Origin: Cytophagaceae bacterium
Lineage (GTDB): Bacteria; Bacteroidota; Bacteroidia; Cytophagales; Spirosomataceae
Reading direction: 5' to 3'
Length of the DNA: 32,173 nucleotides
NCBI GenBank assembly: GCA_027486845.1
Contig: JAIXOL010000064.1
Location: forward strand, 1-32,173
The stretch's first letter is position 1. Each line of letters opens with the position of its first letter. Both the position numbers and the translations under genes were made by a program. The notes beneath the pieces were generated by a model. That model was not told the origin of the DNA and did not search any database. It saw only the letters and a list, made by a program, of their open reading frames with translations. Positions 2,560-25,001 of this stretch are shown in pieces.

Positions 2560-3819
2560 ATGGGCATCAAGAACAGACTAATTATAATGAATTTTCTCCA
2601 ATTTTTTATTTGGGCTTGTTGGCTCATTACGATTGGAGCATACTGGTTTCAAAATAAAGGTTGGTCAGGAGCCGAATTTGGAGCTATTTTTTCGACGATG
2701 GGAATTGCCTCACTGTTTATGCCAACACTCGCTGGCATTATCGCCGATAAATATATCAACGCCGAAAGACTTTACGCTATTCTTCACTTTTTAGGAGCTT
2801 TGGTTTTGATTTATATTCCGCAAGTTGATAACCCGAGTGATTTTTTCTGGGCGATTTTGTTATGTGTGATTTTCTATATGCCTACTTTAGCTCTTTCAAA
2901 CTCAATCGCTTACACAATTCTGAAAAACAATAATACCACCGATCTTGTGAAAGATTTTCCACCGATTAGGGTTTGGGGAACGGTCGGTTTTGTGGTAGCA
3001 CTATGGGTGATTAGCCTTACCCACAATGAAACTTCAGCCAATCAATTTTATATTTCGGCGGCCTCGGCTATTGTTTTGGCGATTTATTCACTTACTTTAC
3101 CAAAATGTCCGCCTTTGGCTGGGTCACCCGATAAAAGAAGTTTTATTGAGATTTTGGGCTTAAATGCTTTTAAATTGTTTAAAGACTCAAAAATTGCAAT
3201 TTTCTTCATTTTTGCGATGTTTTTAGGTGCTTCTTTGCAGCTAACAAATGCGTATGGAGACACTTTCTTACATGACTTTGCTAATGTTGATTTTTATAAA
3301 GATTCGATTGCTGTGAAATATCCAGCTATTATAATGTCAATTTCTCAGATTTCTGAAACACTCTTTATTTTGGCAATTCCCTTCTTTTTGAAGCGTTTTG
3401 GTATCAAGCAAGTTATGCTTATTAGTATGGTTGCGTGGGTTTTACGTTTCGGACTTTTTGCTTTTGGAAATCCAAGTGATGGACTTTGGATGATTATAAT
3501 GTCATGTATCGTTTACGGAATGGCTTTCGATTTCTTTAATATTTCAGGATCATTATTTATCGAAACCTATACCGACCCCAAAATCCGTTCGTCTGCACAG
3601 GGTTTATTTATGATGATGGTCAATGGTTTTGGAGCAGTTTCAGGAAGTTTAATTAGTGGATATGCGATTCAGAAATACTTCACTTTGGCCGATGGAGTAA
3701 CAAAAAACTGGAATGGGATTTGGCTTACATTTGCTATTTATTCATTGGTTGTAGCCATTCTTTTTGCTATCTTATTTAAGCACAAACACAAAGAAGGGAC
3801 AGAGGTAAAAGAACATTAA
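2560..3819 (+). CDS. nupG: Nucleoside:H+ symporter, NupG/XapB-type MFS permease
   Basis: This is an inner-membrane transporter of 419 residues, the usual length for the nucleoside:proton symporter branch of the major facilitator superfamily, with about twelve hydrophobic segments. The N-terminus (NFLQFFIWACWLITIGAYW, then FSTMGIASLFMPTLAGIIAD) and the cytoplasmic block DFPPIRVWGTVGFVVALW are close to what I remember of E. coli NupG. The C-terminus is a short basic tail (KHKHKEG). The likely role is uptake of nucleosides driven by protons. It stands alone: the gene before it is unrelated and the next gene converges on it. The substrate range (purine versus pyrimidine) cannot be read from the sequence. 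The start at 2560 is preferred over an internal Met at residue 10 because homologues begin a few residues before the first helix. Confidence 0.88.
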   Translation: MGIKNRLIIMNFLQFFIWACWLITIGAYWFQNKGWSGAEFGAIFSTMGIASLFMPTLAGIIADKYINAERLYAILHFLGALVLIYIPQVDNPSDFFWAILLCVIFYMPTLALSNSIAYTILKNNNTTDLVKDFPPIRVWGTVGFVVALWVISLTHNETSANQFYISAASAIVLAIYSLTLPKCPPLAGSPDKRSFIEILGLNAFKLFKDSKIAIFFIFAMFLGASLQLTNAYGDTFLHDFANVDFYKDSIAVKYPAIIMSISQISETLFILAIPFFLKRFGIKQVMLISMVAWVLRFGLFAFGNPSDGLWMIIMSCIVYGMAFDFFNISGSLFIETYTDPKIRSSAQGLFMMMVNGFGAVSGSLISGYAIQKYFTLADGVTKNWNGIWLTFAIYSLVVAILFAILFKHKHKEGTEVKEH

Positions 3820-3823
3820 AAAC

Positions 3824-3879
3824 TTACGATTTACGAATGACGAACTATATGAGCAATTCGTCATTCGTTAAATTCGTCA
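3824..3879. repeat. Heptad-periodic inverted repeat between nupG and the M16 gene
   Basis: Left arm units are TTACGAT (3824), TTACGAA (3831) and TGACGAA (3838). Right arm units are TTCGTCA (3857), TTCGTTA (3864) and, slightly out of phase, TTCGTCA (3873). The arms ACGAATGACGAA and TTCGTCATTCGT are perfect complements across a 12-bp loop. It sits exactly between two convergent genes, so it could act as a transcription block, though no U-run follows the stem on either strand. Confidence 0.75.
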
Positions 3880-7143: not shown

Positions 7144-7204
7144 TTGACCATAACCGATGGTCGATGGTTTTGTTTGTTTCTAGTAACTATTGACTATGGA
7201 CTTC
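7144..7204 (+). repeat. Heptad tract between the two exported amidohydrolases
   Basis: 7-bp units can be read as TTGACCA (7144), TAACCGA (7151), TGGTCGA (7158) and TGGTTTT (7165), then TTTCTAG (7177), TAACTAT (7184), TGACTAT (7191) and GGACTTC (7198). The first units are partly complementary to the next two. The tract encodes the false N-terminal extension of the downstream reading frame. Confidence 0.55.
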
Positions 7205-7231
7205 AAAAACTTACCTAAACTCAACCGAATC

Positions 7232-8845
7232 ATGAAAAAAACTTGTATTTTCATCACTACAATGTTGATTGTGAGTAACTTAGCTTTTTCTCAAAAGAAA
7301 AAAGCCGTTGTTGCACCAGTTCCCGACAAACTTGAATTGCTAAAACAAGAGGTAATCAAGAAAATCGATGACCGTCAAAAGTTTACACAAGAAGTAAACG
7401 ATCAAATTTTTAGCTTTGGCGAATTGGGTTTTCAAGAATTTGAAACCTCAAAGTATTTAACGAATTTACTCGAAAAGAATGGTTTCACCGTTGAGCGTGG
7501 CGTAGCAGGAATGCCGACTGCATGGATTGCAAAGTGGGGTTCGGGCAAGCCAGTAATTGCCATCGGTAGCGACATTGATTGTATTCCGAAGGCATCACAA
7601 AAACCTGGTGTTGCTTACAAAGACCCAATCGTAGAAGGTGCTCCTGGACATGGCGAAGGACACAATTCTGGTCAAGCTCTTAATATTACGGCAGTTTTAG
7701 CTTTGAAAGAAGTCATGGAGCGAGATAAAATTTCGGGAACACTCGTGCTTTGGCCTGGTGTTGCCGAAGAGCAAGTAGGAGCAAAGGCTATTTTTGTACG
7801 TGAAGGTTATTTTAAAGATGTTGATGCTTGTATTTTTACGCACGTAGGCGATAATTTGGGCGTTTCTTGGGGCGATGCAGGAAATAACGGCTTGGTGTCG
7901 GTCAAATTTCATTTTGAAGGCGAAGCCGCTCACGCAGCGGGTGCTCCGTGGCGTGGACGCAGTGCTTTAGATGCCGTAGAATTGATGAATGTAGGCTGGA
8001 ATTATAAGCGTGAACACTTAGAAACTACGCAGCGTTCGCATTATGTAATTTCTGATGGTGGCGACCAACCAAACGTTGTGCCATCGAAGGCTTCAGTTTG
8101 GTATTATTTCCGTGACCGAACTTATCCACGTATCAGAAAACTCTTCGAAAGTGGTATAAAAATAGCAGAAGGTGCAGCCATGATGACTGATACGAAATTT
8201 ACCTACGAGATTTTGGGTAGTGCTTGGCCGGGGCATTTCAATAAACCCATTGCTGATGCAATGTATCAGAATATTAAGCGTGTAGGTTTGCCTCAATGGT
8301 CGGAAGAAGACCAAATATTGGCAAAGGCAAGTCAGAAAGAGTTGAAAGCCCCAAAAATTGAAGGTTTGGCTATGAAACTTGATACGATGAGTGAGCCGGT
8401 TTATTCACCAAATATTATTCGTCAAGGTGGCTCAGATGACATTGCTGATATTTCGTGGTCGTTGCCAACGGTTGTATTGCGTTATCCATCAAATATGCCC
8501 GGAATGCCGGGACATCACTGGGCGAATGCCATCACGATGGCAACACCGATTGCTCACAAAGGTTGTACAGCAGGAGCGAAAGCTGAGGCTTTGACAATTT
8601 TGGATATGCTTTTTAAGCCAGAGATTATCAAAAATGCTTGGGAATACTACAATAAAGAACAAACGAAAGAAATTAAATATACGCCGCTTATCTCGAAAGA
8701 AGATAAACCTGCAATCCAGCTGAATAAAGAAATCATGGAGAAGTTCCGCCCAGAAATGAGCAAATATTATTATGATTCAACTAAATACAAAACGTATTTG
8801 GAGCAATTGGGAATCAAATATCCGACGGTGAGAGCGGAGAAATAA
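7232..8845 (+). CDS. Exported M20 amidohydrolase, AbgB-like
   Basis: From ATG 7232 the protein has 537 residues. The start gives a clean signal peptide (MKKTCIFITTMLIVSNLAFS, then QKKK). The upstream TTG at 7190 lies in a repeat tract and is rejected. Metallopeptidase M20D features are AIGSDIDCIP (about 110-119), PGHGEGHNSGQALN with H144, the acidic pair E179-E180 in PGVAEEQVGAKAIF, H204 in CIFTHVGDNLG and H234 in GEAAHAAGAPWRG, followed by the lid domain. In E. coli AbgB is one of the two subunits cleaving p-aminobenzoyl-glutamate and is cytoplasmic. This homologue is predicted periplasmic, so the substrate is probably another N-acyl amino acid. No AbgA partner is present. It is the second gene of a probable two-gene unit. 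Confidence 0.85.
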   Translation: MKKTCIFITTMLIVSNLAFSQKKKAVVAPVPDKLELLKQEVIKKIDDRQKFTQEVNDQIFSFGELGFQEFETSKYLTNLLEKNGFTVERGVAGMPTAWIAKWGSGKPVIAIGSDIDCIPKASQKPGVAYKDPIVEGAPGHGEGHNSGQALNITAVLALKEVMERDKISGTLVLWPGVAEEQVGAKAIFVREGYFKDVDACIFTHVGDNLGVSWGDAGNNGLVSVKFHFEGEAAHAAGAPWRGRSALDAVELMNVGWNYKREHLETTQRSHYVISDGGDQPNVVPSKASVWYYFRDRTYPRIRKLFESGIKIAEGAAMMTDTKFTYEILGSAWPGHFNKPIADAMYQNIKRVGLPQWSEEDQILAKASQKELKAPKIEGLAMKLDTMSEPVYSPNIIRQGGSDDIADISWSLPTVVLRYPSNMPGMPGHHWANAITMATPIAHKGCTAGAKAEALTILDMLFKPEIIKNAWEYYNKEQTKEIKYTPLISKEDKPAIQLNKEIMEKFRPEMSKYYYDSTKYKTYLEQLGIKYPTVRAEK

Positions 8846-8852
8846 AAGTTTT

Positions 8853-8931
8853 CAGTTCTCAATTTGCAGTCTTCAATTTATCGGTAAATGGTCTAATTGA
8901 CTGAAAACTGTAAATTGTGGACTGCAAATTG
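8853..8931. repeat. Heptad-periodic hairpin element between convergent genes
   Basis: The left arm is CAGTTCT (8853), CAATTTG (8860), CAGTCTT (8867) and CAATTTA (8874). The right arm is TTGACTG (8897), AAAACTG (8904), TAAATTG (8911), TGGACTG (8918) and CAAATTG (8925). Left 8860-8880 and right 8911-8931 are complementary at 19 of 21 positions. Period 7 is exact within each arm, with CA at each left-arm unit start and TG at each right-arm unit end. It fills most of the gap between the AbgB-like gene and the minus-strand gene at 8944-9348. Confidence 0.85.
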
Positions 8932-8943
8932 CTAAATTATCTA

Positions 8944-9348
8944 TCAATCTTCTGGAAAAGGAATAAAAACAAATCCTGCAAACTCGGCTTCCATTACAAA
9001 TAAGCAACAATACTCGTCAGCATTTTTGTAATTTTCTTTAAAAAGTTCAATTGATTCTTCTCCAATGAGTTTTCTTTGTACAAATTCATCCAAATAAGAT
9101 GCTTTGTAATCAAATTGAGTTTCAAAATCAAGCCTTGTAAAAAGCATTTGTCCAACCTCAACCAATGTGCGATTGACCACAAAAATCGGATAATCCGAAA
9201 AACCACGTTTACGTATTTGATAAGATGCTTCTTTCAAATGGTCAGAAACTTTTATAAAATCGCCTGCCACAAAACTCATGATTTTTTGGTCGAGTTCAGG
9301 CGAGTTTACATCGTCTAAAATAGTATTTTCGTTTGAGTGTGAAGTCAT
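8944..9348 (-). CDS. Conserved-looking hypothetical protein, 134 residues
   Basis: I do not recognise this family. The protein is acidic and soluble, with no signal peptide or membrane segment. It starts with a polar segment, then SPELDQKIMSFVAGDF (16-31), a probable helical pair (FIKVSDHLKEASYQIRKRG), a beta-like DYPIFVVNRTLVEVGQMLF and a C-terminal strand pattern EYCCLFVMEAEFAGFVFIPF. Composition and codon use match the neighbours, so it is probably a real gene. It is monocistronic, converges with the AbgB-like gene and diverges from nhaA, whose predicted -33 box lies inside its first codons. It may be a Bacteroidota-specific cytoplasmic protein. No function is proposed. Confidence 0.75.
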   Translation of the reverse strand: MTSHSNENTILDDVNSPELDQKIMSFVAGDFIKVSDHLKEASYQIRKRGFSDYPIFVVNRTLVEVGQMLFTRLDFETQFDYKASYLDEFVQRKLIGEESIELFKENYKNADEYCCLFVMEAEFAGFVFIPFPED

Positions 9349-10927: not shown

Positions 10928-12145
10928 CTACATCCTAGCCGCAATAAGCAGACTTAAATCTTTATATCTAAGATGGAAACGTTGTGCAATTGACAAGTTT
11001 GTTAAGCTACCTTTGAAACAATAAACCCCTTTTGTGAACCATTGTTTGGCGAAAATCATGTCTTCTATGCCGCCCACATTGCCTGTTTTTAGTAGAAATG
11101 GCGTAAATACATTACTTAATGCGATACTTGCTGTATGTGCAACCCTTGATGCAATATTGGGTACACAATAGTGAGTAATGCCATATTTCTGAAAAGTTGG
11201 ATGTTTATGTGTTGTTATTTCAGAAGTTTCAAAGCAGCCTCCTTGGTCAATCGAAACATCAATAATTATCGAATTAGAGTTCATTTTTGAAACCATTTCT
11301 TCTGTAACAACAATTGGTGCAACGCCATCTTCGGCACGCATAGCACCAATCACTACATCAGCACGAGCGAGTGCATCTCCTAAAGTGTCAGAGTCGATGA
11401 TTGAAGTATATATGTGTTGCCCGACAGCATATTTTAAGCGTTGAAGTCGATAAATGTGTTGATCAAAAACCTTGATTTCTGCACCCAAACCGAGGGCTGT
11501 ACGAGCAGCATATTCGCCAACTGTTCCAGCTCCGATTATCACAATTTTGGTTGGTGGAACCCCCGTTATTCCACCTAATATCATTCCTCGACCGTTGTGT
11601 ACGCTGCTCAGATATTCGGCCGCAATAAGCATAACTGTGCTTCCTGCAATTTCGCTCATGGTTCTGATAATCGGATAATTACCCACTTTATCTTGAATCA
11701 GCTCAAAACCTATGCCTGTTACTCGTTTTTCGTTGAGTTGTTCAAAATATGAGCGAGAAAGGTTCGGAACGTTGAGCGTTGAAATAACTGTTTGACCAGC
11801 TTTTAGATAAGTCATTTCAGCTTCGAGTAGGGGCTCTATTTTTACAATCAAATCAGCTTCAAAAACCTCTTGCGGACTGTAAACTATTCTTGCACCGGCT
11901 TCGCTATAATCATTGTCTGAGAATTTTGCTCCTTCGCCAGCACCTTTTTCTAAAATTACCTCGTGGCCGTTTCTAACCAATAATCTGACCGATTCAGGTG
12001 TAATTGCAATACGGTTTTCCTGTAAAGAAACCTCACGAGGTAGTCCAATAAAAAGGCTTTTTTTTCCTTTTTTTATCATTTCCGGCGATTCTTGTGGGTA
12101 AAGAATCGATTGCTGTGCTAATTCTGAAATAGATTGTCCTGTCAT
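10928..12145 (-). CDS. ald: Alanine dehydrogenase / PNT-alpha-like NAD-dependent dehydrogenase
   Basis: This cytosolic enzyme family oxidises L-alanine to pyruvate and ammonia with NAD+. From ATG 12145 it has 405 residues. The upstream ATG at 12202 lies beyond a repeat tract and adds an unlikely 19 residues, so the inner start is preferred. Visible features after a short N-terminal extension (SISELAQQSILYPQE) are the substrate-domain start IGLPREVSLQENRIAITPESV, the conserved block RTMSEIAGSTVMLIAAEYL, the glycine-rich dinucleotide loop KIVIIGAGTVGEYAAR, and the end block CVPNIASRVAHTASIALSNV. The N-terminal extension and the position directly after tsaE are typical of Bacteroidota. It follows tsaE by 69 bp on the same strand, so co-transcription is likely. 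The enzyme class is sure; alanine as substrate is inferred. Confidence 0.9.
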   Translation of the reverse strand: MTGQSISELAQQSILYPQESPEMIKKGKKSLFIGLPREVSLQENRIAITPESVRLLVRNGHEVILEKGAGEGAKFSDNDYSEAGARIVYSPQEVFEADLIVKIEPLLEAEMTYLKAGQTVISTLNVPNLSRSYFEQLNEKRVTGIGFELIQDKVGNYPIIRTMSEIAGSTVMLIAAEYLSSVHNGRGMILGGITGVPPTKIVIIGAGTVGEYAARTALGLGAEIKVFDQHIYRLQRLKYAVGQHIYTSIIDSDTLGDALARADVVIGAMRAEDGVAPIVVTEEMVSKMNSNSIIIDVSIDQGGCFETSEITTHKHPTFQKYGITHYCVPNIASRVAHTASIALSNVFTPFLLKTGNVGGIEDMIFAKQWFTKGVYCFKGSLTNLSIAQRFHLRYKDLSLLIAARM

Positions 12146-12174: not shown

Positions 12175-12195
12175 AAAACTGTTTACTGTACACTG
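12175..12195. repeat. Short heptad tract between tsaE and ald
   Basis: There are three exact 7-bp units ending in ACTG: AAAACTG (12175), TTTACTG (12182) and TACACTG (12189). A fourth GTTACTG at 12167 is one base out of phase. The tract falls in the tsaE-ald gap and would encode part of the rejected N-terminal extension of ald. Confidence 0.6.
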
Positions 12196-12619: not shown

Positions 12620-12919
12620 TCGAATAATTTCTTTATATTTTCCTGTAAAAATCGTATAAATACTTAAAATAATTTTAATCTTTTTTTAGAAAATGCTTTT
12701 TTACAAAAAAATCAAATTTTCTTAGGCAATATATGCAGAAATCTGTTGATTTTTAAAGAACTTTGTTAGAGGAAATAAAAAAACCAATAATAGTAGTACC
12801 TAATAGTTAATAGCGATTAGTATTTAGCTTAATTGAGAAATTCAAGGTTGTTTATTCGCTAACAATATAACTGCCGTGACCAATACTTTAGCCAAAACCC
12901 AATAGATTTTATTAGTAGA
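12620..12919. other. Divergent tsaE/mrdA regulatory gap with a heptad tract
   Basis: No gene is seen. The left half is very AT-rich with several A- and T-runs. Positions 12789-12830 form six consecutive 7-bp units: AATAGTA, GTACCTA, ATAGTTA, ATAGCGA, TTAGTAT, TTAGCTT. Five of the six have TAG at positions 2-4 or 3-5, and AG recurs exactly every 7 bp at 12805, 12812, 12819 and 12826. No matching complementary arm is visible. No perfect TANNTTTG box was found for either gene. Confidence 0.55.
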
Positions 12920-24480: not shown

Positions 24481-24600
24481 ATGTTCGGTTATCAATATCC
24501 AACTTGGCTTCCAATTGCATTTTTTGTTGTTCTGATGCTTACATCTTTTGCAGTTGGCAAATGGTTAGTAAAAAATGACAGAGATTATAAAGGGTTCTGA
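24481..24600 (+). CDS. 39-residue single-span membrane microprotein
   Basis: The reading frame starts MFGYQYPTWLPIAFFVVLML and ends KNDRDYKGF. One hydrophobic span (about residues 9-29) is followed by a charged, basic tail, suggesting an N-out, C-in inner-membrane peptide. Support for a real gene: it fills an otherwise empty gap, has a TANNTTTG box 30 bp upstream, and its amino-acid make-up is that of a genuine membrane peptide rather than random translation. It follows the S41 protease by 96 bp on the same strand. I do not recognise it. It might be an accessory subunit of a membrane complex, which is speculation. Confidence 0.6.
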   Translation: MFGYQYPTWLPIAFFVVLMLTSFAVGKWLVKNDRDYKGF

Positions 24601-24602
24601 GG

Positions 24603-24671
24603 TTAATGTAAAATGATGAATGTTTAATGCTCAAATTGTTTTTTGATTAAACATTCATCATTAAACATTAA
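24603..24671. repeat. Heptad-periodic hairpin element after the microprotein gene
   Basis: The left arm is TTAATGT (24603), AAAATGA (24610), TGAATGT (24617) and TTAATGC (24624). The right arm is ATTAAAC (24646), ATTCATC (24653), ATTAAAC (24660) and ATTAAAA (24667). Arms 24603-24628 and 24646-24671 are complementary at 24 of 26 positions around a 17-bp loop. It lies between the plus-strand microprotein gene and the minus-strand rhodanese gene and overlaps the last codon of the latter. Confidence 0.88.
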
Positions 24672-24952
24672 AATACTCCTTCTTCCAGGTGCAGAATAGT
24701 TTTCTCTGACAATTTCTTTTTTAAAAGTCGTGCTACGATACTACTTCGTGTGCCGTTTGAACAAGCTACTACAATCGTTTGGTAGTTTTTCAGTTCGTCC
24801 AATCGCTCTGTAACTTCATGTGGAGGTATATTTATTCCACCGATATTAAAATCAGCAAATTCGCTAATTTCTCTTACATCAAGCAATATACTTTTTGGGT
24901 TAGAAAGAATGCTTTTTAAGTCGTTTTGCGATATTTCGGGAAAGTCTTGCAT
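24668..24952 (-). CDS. Single-domain rhodanese-like protein
   Basis: The protein has 94 residues from ATG 24952. A longer frame from 24982 would begin inside the terminator hairpin of the preceding gene and is rejected. The rhodanese fold is recognisable: ILLDVREISEFADFNIGGIN (strand with the conserved DVRE and the GxxNIP turn), then the active-site loop VVACSNGTRSS with the catalytic cysteine C64 and a six-residue loop ending in R69, followed by a helix. Function is sulfur transfer, or a related role as a persulfide carrier, in the cytoplasm. It is short but within the range of single-domain PspE/GlpE-like proteins. It follows the ABC-F gene on the same strand but after a terminator. Confidence 0.85.
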   Translation of the reverse strand: MQDFPEISQNDLKSILSNPKSILLDVREISEFADFNIGGINIPPHEVTERLDELKNYQTIVVACSNGTRSSIVARLLKKKLSEKTILHLEEGVF

Positions 24953-24968
24953 GATTTTGTGTATAAAA

Positions 24969-25001
24969 TAAACGTGGCACATTTTGATAATATGCCACGT
25001 T
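24969..25001 (-). terminator. Terminator of the ABC-F gene
   Basis: A perfect 10-bp stem AAACGTGGCA / TGCCACGTTT (24969-24978 and 24992-25001), followed on the minus strand by ATTTTATA. It lies 26 bp after the ABC-F stop and 17 bp before the rhodanese start. Confidence 0.8.

Follow-up and report, generated by a model that had tools for sequence, protein, structure and literature searches.

The window, the whole stretch of 32,173 nucleotides that was analysed, belongs to a genome that is Emticicia-like (Cytophagales) as judged from its sequence, and the protein adjoining the element at 8853-8931 shows 96-98% identity to its counterparts in L001-L003, which are labelled Emticicia. The genes and features of the window that are relevant to this element and to similar tracts are the following:

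3824..3879, no strand: mirrored heptad element with TTACGAT, TTACGAA, TGACGAA and TTCGT words, between convergent genes, 4 bp past the stop of the gene at 2560-3819
7144..7204, no strand: period-7 tract (lag-7 p 0.002) without significant pairing (inverted repeat p 0.13)
7190..8845, plus strand: upstream gene with the Pfam domain M20_dimer (peptidase family M20 type), whose stop ends one base before 8847
8847..8856, no strand: outer-left word AGTTTTCAGT, fully complementary to 8900-8909, though not nested
8853..8880, no strand: left arm of four heptads, printed from the sequence as CAGTTCT CAATTTG CAGTCTT CAATTTA
8897..8931, no strand: right arm of five heptads, TTGACTG AAAACTG TAAATTG TGGACTG CAAATTG
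8900..8909, no strand: ACTGAAAACT, partner of 8847-8856
8944..9348, minus strand: convergent downstream ORF of 134 aa, no Pfam match
24481..24600, plus strand: small ORF MFGYQYP... of 39 aa (MFGYQYPTWLPIAFF...), with its TGA stop 2 bp before the 24603 element
24603..24671, no strand: mirrored heptad element with ATTAAAC and ATTCATC words and 26-nt arms that are 92% complementary
24668..24982, minus strand: rhodanese-domain gene that ends at the edge of the 24603 element

The element at 8853-8931 is located in a gap of 98 bases between the convergent genes 7190-8845 (+) and 8944-9348 (-), i.e. between two stops. A sequence-only reading had described it as a foldback of 7-bp words, and both the heptads and the pairing of 8860-8880 with 8911-8931, where 19 of 21 positions are complementary, were reproduced exactly. 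In a comparison of each tract with 1000 dinucleotide shuffles by means of a lag-7 score and an inverted-repeat score, the element yielded a p of 0.007 for the period, and its inverted repeat was reached in none of the 1000 shuffles. RNA folding of 8846-8940 resulted in -32.8 kcal/mol (z -7.4). The longest T-runs on the two strands of the element comprise two and four bases, short of the U-tract of an intrinsic terminator. A DNA search of its own genome (G000; 82 contigs with 5,360,263 bases) provided no near-identical copy, the best other match to this element being 73% over 65 bp, and at the gathering score Rfam matched neither the window nor the loci L172, L090, L104 and L097.

The same architecture had been claimed for 3824-3879 and 24603-24671, and both turned out to be as solid as the given element when compared with shuffles. 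Neither the lag-7 score nor the inverted repeat of 3824-3879 was reached (0/1000 each), and 24603-24671 gave a lag-7 p of 0.003 and an inverted repeat reached in 0/1000, with a z of -7.7 for RNA folding of 24595-24680. The latter element lies between the stops at 24598-24600 (+) and 24668-24670 (-) and overlaps the second of them. The small ORF 24481-24600 is below the 80-aa limit of the ORF list, and its sequence can be made out again in the gaps at the orthologous position in G003, G004, G006 and G010. Four looser tracts of the earlier description fared unevenly: 7144-7204 is clearly periodic, 12175-12195 (lag-7 p 0.024, inverted repeat p 0.98) and 12789-12830 (lag-7 p 0.047, inverted repeat p 0.75) are marginal, and 2481-2522 is unsupported by 1000 shuffles (lag-7 p 0.14, inverted repeat p 0.13). 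In relatives, the slot of 7144-7204 is occupied by plain stem-loops (G010 and G006), and that of 3824 by a GAATGA/TTCATTC foldback in G002 which is tetramer-like by eye.

Period of seven bases and position behind stop codons

The excess over chance was determined in a 432-kb sample of the same genome, consisting of the window and 20 other stretches with 55 kb of intergenic and 372 kb of coding DNA, in which genes were called by a simple purpose-built caller that misses small ORFs. Ten strict period-7 segments were detected in the intergenic DNA versus 0.25 after shuffling, an intergenic position as in STRR-type repeats (STRR and REP denote repeat classes), along with 11 strict period-14 segments versus 0.15, and the remaining periods between 4 and 15 yielded 0-4 segments; the coding DNA contained three strict period-7 segments. 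Two of the ten lie in divergent gaps, and none is within the window, since the arms of the window elements are too short or degenerate for this threshold. A joint mirrored scan, with three units per arm, two complementary arms and a threshold that is passed once per shuffled data set, resulted in 11 of 244 gaps at k=7 versus about one by shuffling, and in 0-2 gaps at k=5, 6, 8, 9, 10 and 11. Eight of the 11 score higher than anything in three shuffles, and all three main elements of the window belong to these top eight. The bulk autocorrelation is weak, with z values at lags 7, 14 and 21 of 2.7, 3.0 and 3.6 in convergent gaps, 4.5, 4.6 and 5.8 in tandem gaps and 2.4, 1.2 and 3.2 in divergent gaps. 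The period-7 excess in intergenic DNA that had been named as a check is present in the 432-kb sample, and the view that period and symmetry, not sequence, define the family is supported.

A rule of exactly seven was rejected with respect to the octads at slot E090 in G002 and G006 (lag scores), the 9-bp foldback at the given slot W8846 in L008/G007, the tetramer-like foldback at 3824 in G002 and an alternation of 7 and 6 bp at several loci (by eye). Moreover, foldbacks of GTCA words with 8-bp units occur in 5/296 genomes, and seven is therefore no strict ruler. By lineage, strict period-7 segments amount to six in the loci of Emticicia synteny, three in other Spirosomataceae, three in Chitinophagales-type and five in Flavobacteriales loci, and none was detected in five Lacihabitans-group loci or in 11 other Cytophagales loci. 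Five period-9 segments are present in the Lacihabitans-group loci L012-L015 and L080. The CAGT arrays of L208, L209, L212-L214, L216 and L217 alternate by eye between 7- and 6-bp units (CAGTTTT CAGTCG), which gives a 13-bp rhythm.

The 11 mirrored elements of the genome occupy three convergent, seven tandem and one divergent gap, so that a restriction to convergent gaps was rejected. Nine of them lie at most 17 bp from a stop codon or overlap a stop by 2, with the small ORF 24481-24600 supplying the stop in the 24603 case. The other two are L095:3040, close to where a gene starts, and the AT-rich L089:3716. Inverted repeats of all kinds cluster behind genes: the 42 convergent gaps contain 20, the 162 tandem gaps 28 and the 51 divergent gaps 2. 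Among 20 loci from 20 genomes with CAGT words in the left arm, all from the window's class and picked by the search tool, 17 are within 36 bp of a stop, versus 0/5 of the loci with the reversed arrangement, the genes around all 25 loci being merely the longest ORFs. Thirteen of the 20 loci are tandem, and in seven of these the next start is only 6-25 bp away, so that the elements touch both stop and start and leave little room for a new promoter.

The words also appear to be in register with the stop. Where a TAG stop is followed by CAGT words, the distance between the stop and the first CAG is divisible by 7 in 6/10 cases (by script), and in 7/12 if two more contexts are added, with one in seven expected. 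TAG accounts for 48/310 stops in the own sample versus 7/18 among the stops at most 36 bp from the CAGT-left and reversed loci, an enrichment at the elements that is suggestive only. Three observations thus go beyond the sequence-only reading, namely the adjacency to stops, the exchange of words at one slot between sister species and the polarity of the CAGT words.

Distribution and polarity of the words in Bacteroidota

Four consecutive CAGT heptads are present in 116/296 Bacteroidota genomes and 59/140 genera, the backward control with TGAC heptads being common as well. The foldback with CAGT in the left and ACTG in the right arm was detected with 7-bp units in 55/296 genomes (318 placements), the reversed arrangement in 12/296 (19 placements) and the 8-bp version of the CAGT foldback in 1/296, where overlapping placements of one array are counted separately and chance is estimated at about 7-8 per pattern. 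The genome of the window contains 11 CAGT-left and no reversed cases, and both polarities are found in eight genomes, including G201 with 2 versus 3. The GTCA family served as a built-in control and gave 35 GTCA-left placements in 12 genomes and 55 TGAC-left placements in 14 at period 7, G111 being the one genome with both kinds, as well as 24 GTCA-left placements at period 8 in the five genomes mentioned above. Since GTCA words lack an overall preference and include 8-bp forms, polarity and strict period hold for CAGT words and not for all words. Foldbacks of GTCA words have a single polarity in 24/25 genomes, which is opposite between genomes (25 TGAC-left in G302, 8 GTCA-left in G293).

In the 5' arms of 30 elements, among which some slots are represented by more than one species, AGT outnumbers ACT by 51 to 5, and AG/GA steps outnumber CT/TC steps by 228 to 90. 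That the 5' arm is purine-rich as a rule was rejected, the mean being 0.53, with 13 elements exceeding one half and 12 falling below it. With regard to words or a descent possibly shared with cyanobacterial STRRs, a search of plasmids with the element of L104 gave matches in Calothrix (94% over 33 bp) and in Kovacikia (90% over 30 bp). The ACTG heptads of L104 showed weak matches of 74% over 70-78 bp to the Enterobacter/Salmonella plasmids NZ_CP116350, NZ_CP030078 and CP074250.

Turnover and persistence at orthologous slots

The given slot W8846 contains nearly the same words in L001, G004, G010 and G009, an expanded CAGT array in G002, other heptad-like words in L006, a plain stem with the same core in G006, plain stems in L005, L007, L009 and L010, and a long stem with a 9-bp rhythm in L008. 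Four word families are distributed over the 11 genomes at slot E090: G000 carries heptads (CAGTCTT), G002 and G006 carry octads (CAAATTTC), G004 has words of the GAGTTTT type, and the remaining seven genomes have TTACGAA. The upstream gene shares 97% identity between G000 and G002. At slot E097, where the paralogous loci L138 and L139 were dropped, AATTAAC heptads occur in G000 and G002, CAATTATCAGTGAA words in G010, GTCNATA words in G004, a plain stem in G003 and terminators consisting of a stem and a T-run in G006, G001, G005, G007 and G008. The genes flanking E090 might be rpsI and rpsB according to size and order. Behind this slot, from about position 1973 of L172 onward, a conserved stretch (GTCCAGACAGCACTTA...) without a match in Rfam precedes the next gene in all 11 genomes.

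Folding was scored at five slots that were picked for an element in G000, leaving aside E104, 3824 and 24603. A z of -3.0 or lower was obtained for 13/13 sequences at W8846, 11/11 at E090, 9/10 at E097, 7/11 at E094 and 6/10 at E096, where the contig end L156 was dropped and two gaps too short to score were counted as without hairpin. The distant species G001, G005, G007 and G008 have no hairpin at E096 and z values above -3 at E094. These data indicate that the same slot in sister species contains other words, units of 8 or 9 bp or a plain terminator, and that the hairpin usually persists; as sister species often differ in words at the same place, the shape outlasts the sequence.

Covariation of the arms between strains, which had been proposed as a test, was borne out at E090 and failed in the given stem. 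An alignment of five of the seven TTACGAA sequences at E090, from which G009 and G010 were excluded for their longer inner arrays, revealed two-sided changes in 7/23 pairs, a number reached in 3/500 shuffles and compared with 0-3 two-sided pairs when the partner was slid. The given stem yielded no two-sided change in 29 nested pairs of five sequences, along with 7 one-sided changes, 18 invariant pairs and 8 broken cells. G004 and G010 differ on both sides in 2/22 pairs at slot 24603, none of which is broken, and three sequences of E097 gave 1/18 two-sided pairs with 3 broken cells. The 4/39 two-sided pairs (12 broken cells) in three sequences of E104 were set aside, as the fold runs into the coding flank. 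The segments 8847-8856 and 8900-8909 are perfect complements both in the window and in L001, with one compensating base difference on each side (by eye). Their pairing is incompatible with the stem as a simple hairpin, and this single case therefore points to copying of arms at the DNA level over selection on the RNA.

Origin of the hairpins and relation to known systems

The explanation that we tentatively prefer, with a confidence that falls a little short of even, is that these elements are fast-turnover 3'-end hairpins which arise from 7-bp slippage and arm copying and are kept because a hairpin at this place is useful or harmless. Words would multiply by slippage of 7 or 14 bp from the stop codon, often in register with it, and one arm would then serve as the template for the other, by a template switch while the DNA is transiently folded into a hairpin; this is proposed to keep the arms matched. 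The slot would retain whatever hairpin arises, because it may be tolerated just behind the reading frame and is probably useful. Hairpins can protect RNA against 3' decay, and the likely use would be that of a barrier to 3'-to-5' RNA decay and of a spacer, for both transcripts in convergent gaps, rather than that of a U-tract terminator; it is the persistence at the slots that suggests such usefulness. This is the simplest account, and it would explain the polarity, since on either strand it is AGT words that run outward from the stop, as well as the TAG register, the fast replacement of words and the fact that no donor copy of the given element was found in its genome. The growth by units and foldback copying envisaged in the sequence-only reading are a good fit to the comparisons of sister species. 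The preferred explanation has its support in the position behind stops, turnover, persistence, the covariation at E090, the TAG register, the arm copying, the missing donor and the period. Against it stand the given stem without a two-sided change, the joint change outside the stem that was seen in one case, the lack of a hairpin at E096 and its weakness at E094 in the distant species, the two of 11 own elements away from stops, and the 8-bp foldbacks of GTCA words.

A purely mutational origin, in which gaps behind stops tolerate microsatellite-like slippage and template switching and a functionless hairpin turns over by drift, would likewise account for words that differ freely between sister species, for the missing and weak hairpins in the four distant species and for the lack of two-sided changes in the given stem. 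We consider it rather unlikely, because a hairpin often unrelated in sequence was kept in all sequences of W8846 and E090, the arms covary at E090, and the hairpins of all kinds are distributed unequally over convergent, tandem and divergent gaps. That the elements are the usual bidirectional intrinsic terminators, merely written in heptads, is suggested by the plain stems with T-runs in the same slots of relatives (L005, L009 and L010 at W8846 and the five genomes at E097), by the location of the three main window elements between convergent genes and by the available part of PMC2670836, in which termination is suggested for a Nostoc STRR hairpin. A T-run of five or more is nevertheless present in only 1/11 heptad elements (counting the nine next to a stop together with L106:1340 and L094:1830 from just below the threshold) versus 25/45 other hairpins; the G+C fraction of the heptad elements is only 0.19-0.49, and heptad arms (445 to 454) do not show the A-left/T-right asymmetry that ordinary hairpins have (699 to 367). 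As T-runs are rare and narrow tandem gaps common, with the next start close behind in seven of 13 tandem loci, the elements are probably not standard terminators; the plain terminator was demoted for the mostly absent U-tract, and this explanation is distinctly improbable.

The polarity of the CAGT words across the 296 genomes and in the own genome and the prevalence of AGT over ACT in the 5' arms would be expected from a dedicated activity, for example a transposase or an RNA-binding protein, with a 7-bp register for AGT words, by which foldbacks would be placed or read; RAYT and HUH are such hairpin-recognising transposase types. A protein or RNA reading such a register was the other option of the sequence-only reading and stays hypothetical. 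G201 and seven other genomes contain both kinds, GTCA words are found in both orientations, no whole copy of the given element exists elsewhere in the genome, and growth from stop codons can explain the polarity as well, which makes a dedicated activity very unlikely. A dispersed copy-and-paste family such as REP or MITE would fit the word families common to several loci and genomes, but was demoted since the search of the own genome, done for the given element, gave no near-identical copy, and it is now highly improbable. A further-reaching form of the preferred explanation, namely a widespread polar class of 3'-end foldbacks in Bacteroidota, where a stop-anchored process that for the most part counts in 7 bp and favours AGT words repeatedly rewrites hairpins whose sequence is disposable and replaced wholesale between sister species, is plainly a long shot. 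The anchoring at stops, the exchange of entire word sets at one slot, the marked preference of CAGT words for 7 over 8 bp and the polarity of the arms divide the problem into questions that can be tested one by one: what measures seven bases, why the 5' arm is the one with AGT words and whether a gene can be followed by just any hairpin. If the latter applies, the slots would represent natural experiments on the origin and retention of hairpins.

Repeats with a seven-base unit are on record from cyanobacteria, from Beggiatoaceae and from a small number of Bacteroidetes, with no settled origin or role in the accessible parts of the literature found. A description of mirrored heptads in Bacteroidota was not found in the literature, including the available text of PMC6749651, PMC9723704 and PMC2858038, most subscription journals being outside this coverage. 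Intrinsic bidirectional terminators occupy the same slots in relatives and likewise form a hairpin at convergent gene ends, whereas the elements described here have no U-tract as a rule, an AT-rich stem and often a narrow tandem gap. REP and GTAG-tagged palindromes, according to the accessible sections of PMC3733652, are also short and extragenic; the given element differs by the lack of a conserved sequence found and of repeats around its own genome and by the 7-bp units in its arms. Palindromes containing GTAGAGACAGGGC and resembling GTAG-tagged REPs were observed in L090 (19583-19617) and L093 (10962-10992). L091 has three near-identical hairpins (AAAAAAGGTCGAGCA/TGCTTGACCTTTTTT) within 6 kb, at 11835, 12568 and 17288. 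Template switching that makes or maintains RNA hairpins, as outlined in the available portion of PMC8794818, is what we propose to have produced the matched arms and the joint changes, to which the present elements add the heptad register and the anchoring at stop codons.

The TAACTGA direct repeats (MacGregor 2015, PMC4679880, in the text accessible to us) are mostly intergenic 7-bp units with an ACTG core that are mixed with other heptamers, show indels in 7-nt steps and are present in five Bacteroidetes. They share the unit length, the mostly intergenic position and the ACTG core with the present elements, but consist of a single invariant word repeated directly, which in the main genome mostly lies shortly ahead of start codons, with one inverted case, whereas the words of the given element do not include TAACTGA and the element lies between two stops. 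With respect to cyanobacterial STRRs, the available parts of PMC3488679 and PMC2670836 describe degenerate 7-bp units that pair into a hairpin and vary by unit number, so that the mirrored heptad form is already known from cyanobacteria, for example in the P6b stem of the Nostoc tRNALeu(UAA) intron. A terminator role has been proposed for one intergenic STRR hairpin of Nostoc that lies close to the 3' end of a gene (PMC2670836). The elements of the window share with STRRs the tandem degenerate 7-bp units, the intergenic position and the hairpin of complementary heptad arms. They differ in belonging to another phylum with many word families per genome, and anchoring at stop codons, slot exchange and polarity go unmentioned for STRRs in the accessible text of the two papers. 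The best reading at present is that they probably work like cyanobacterial STRR hairpins.
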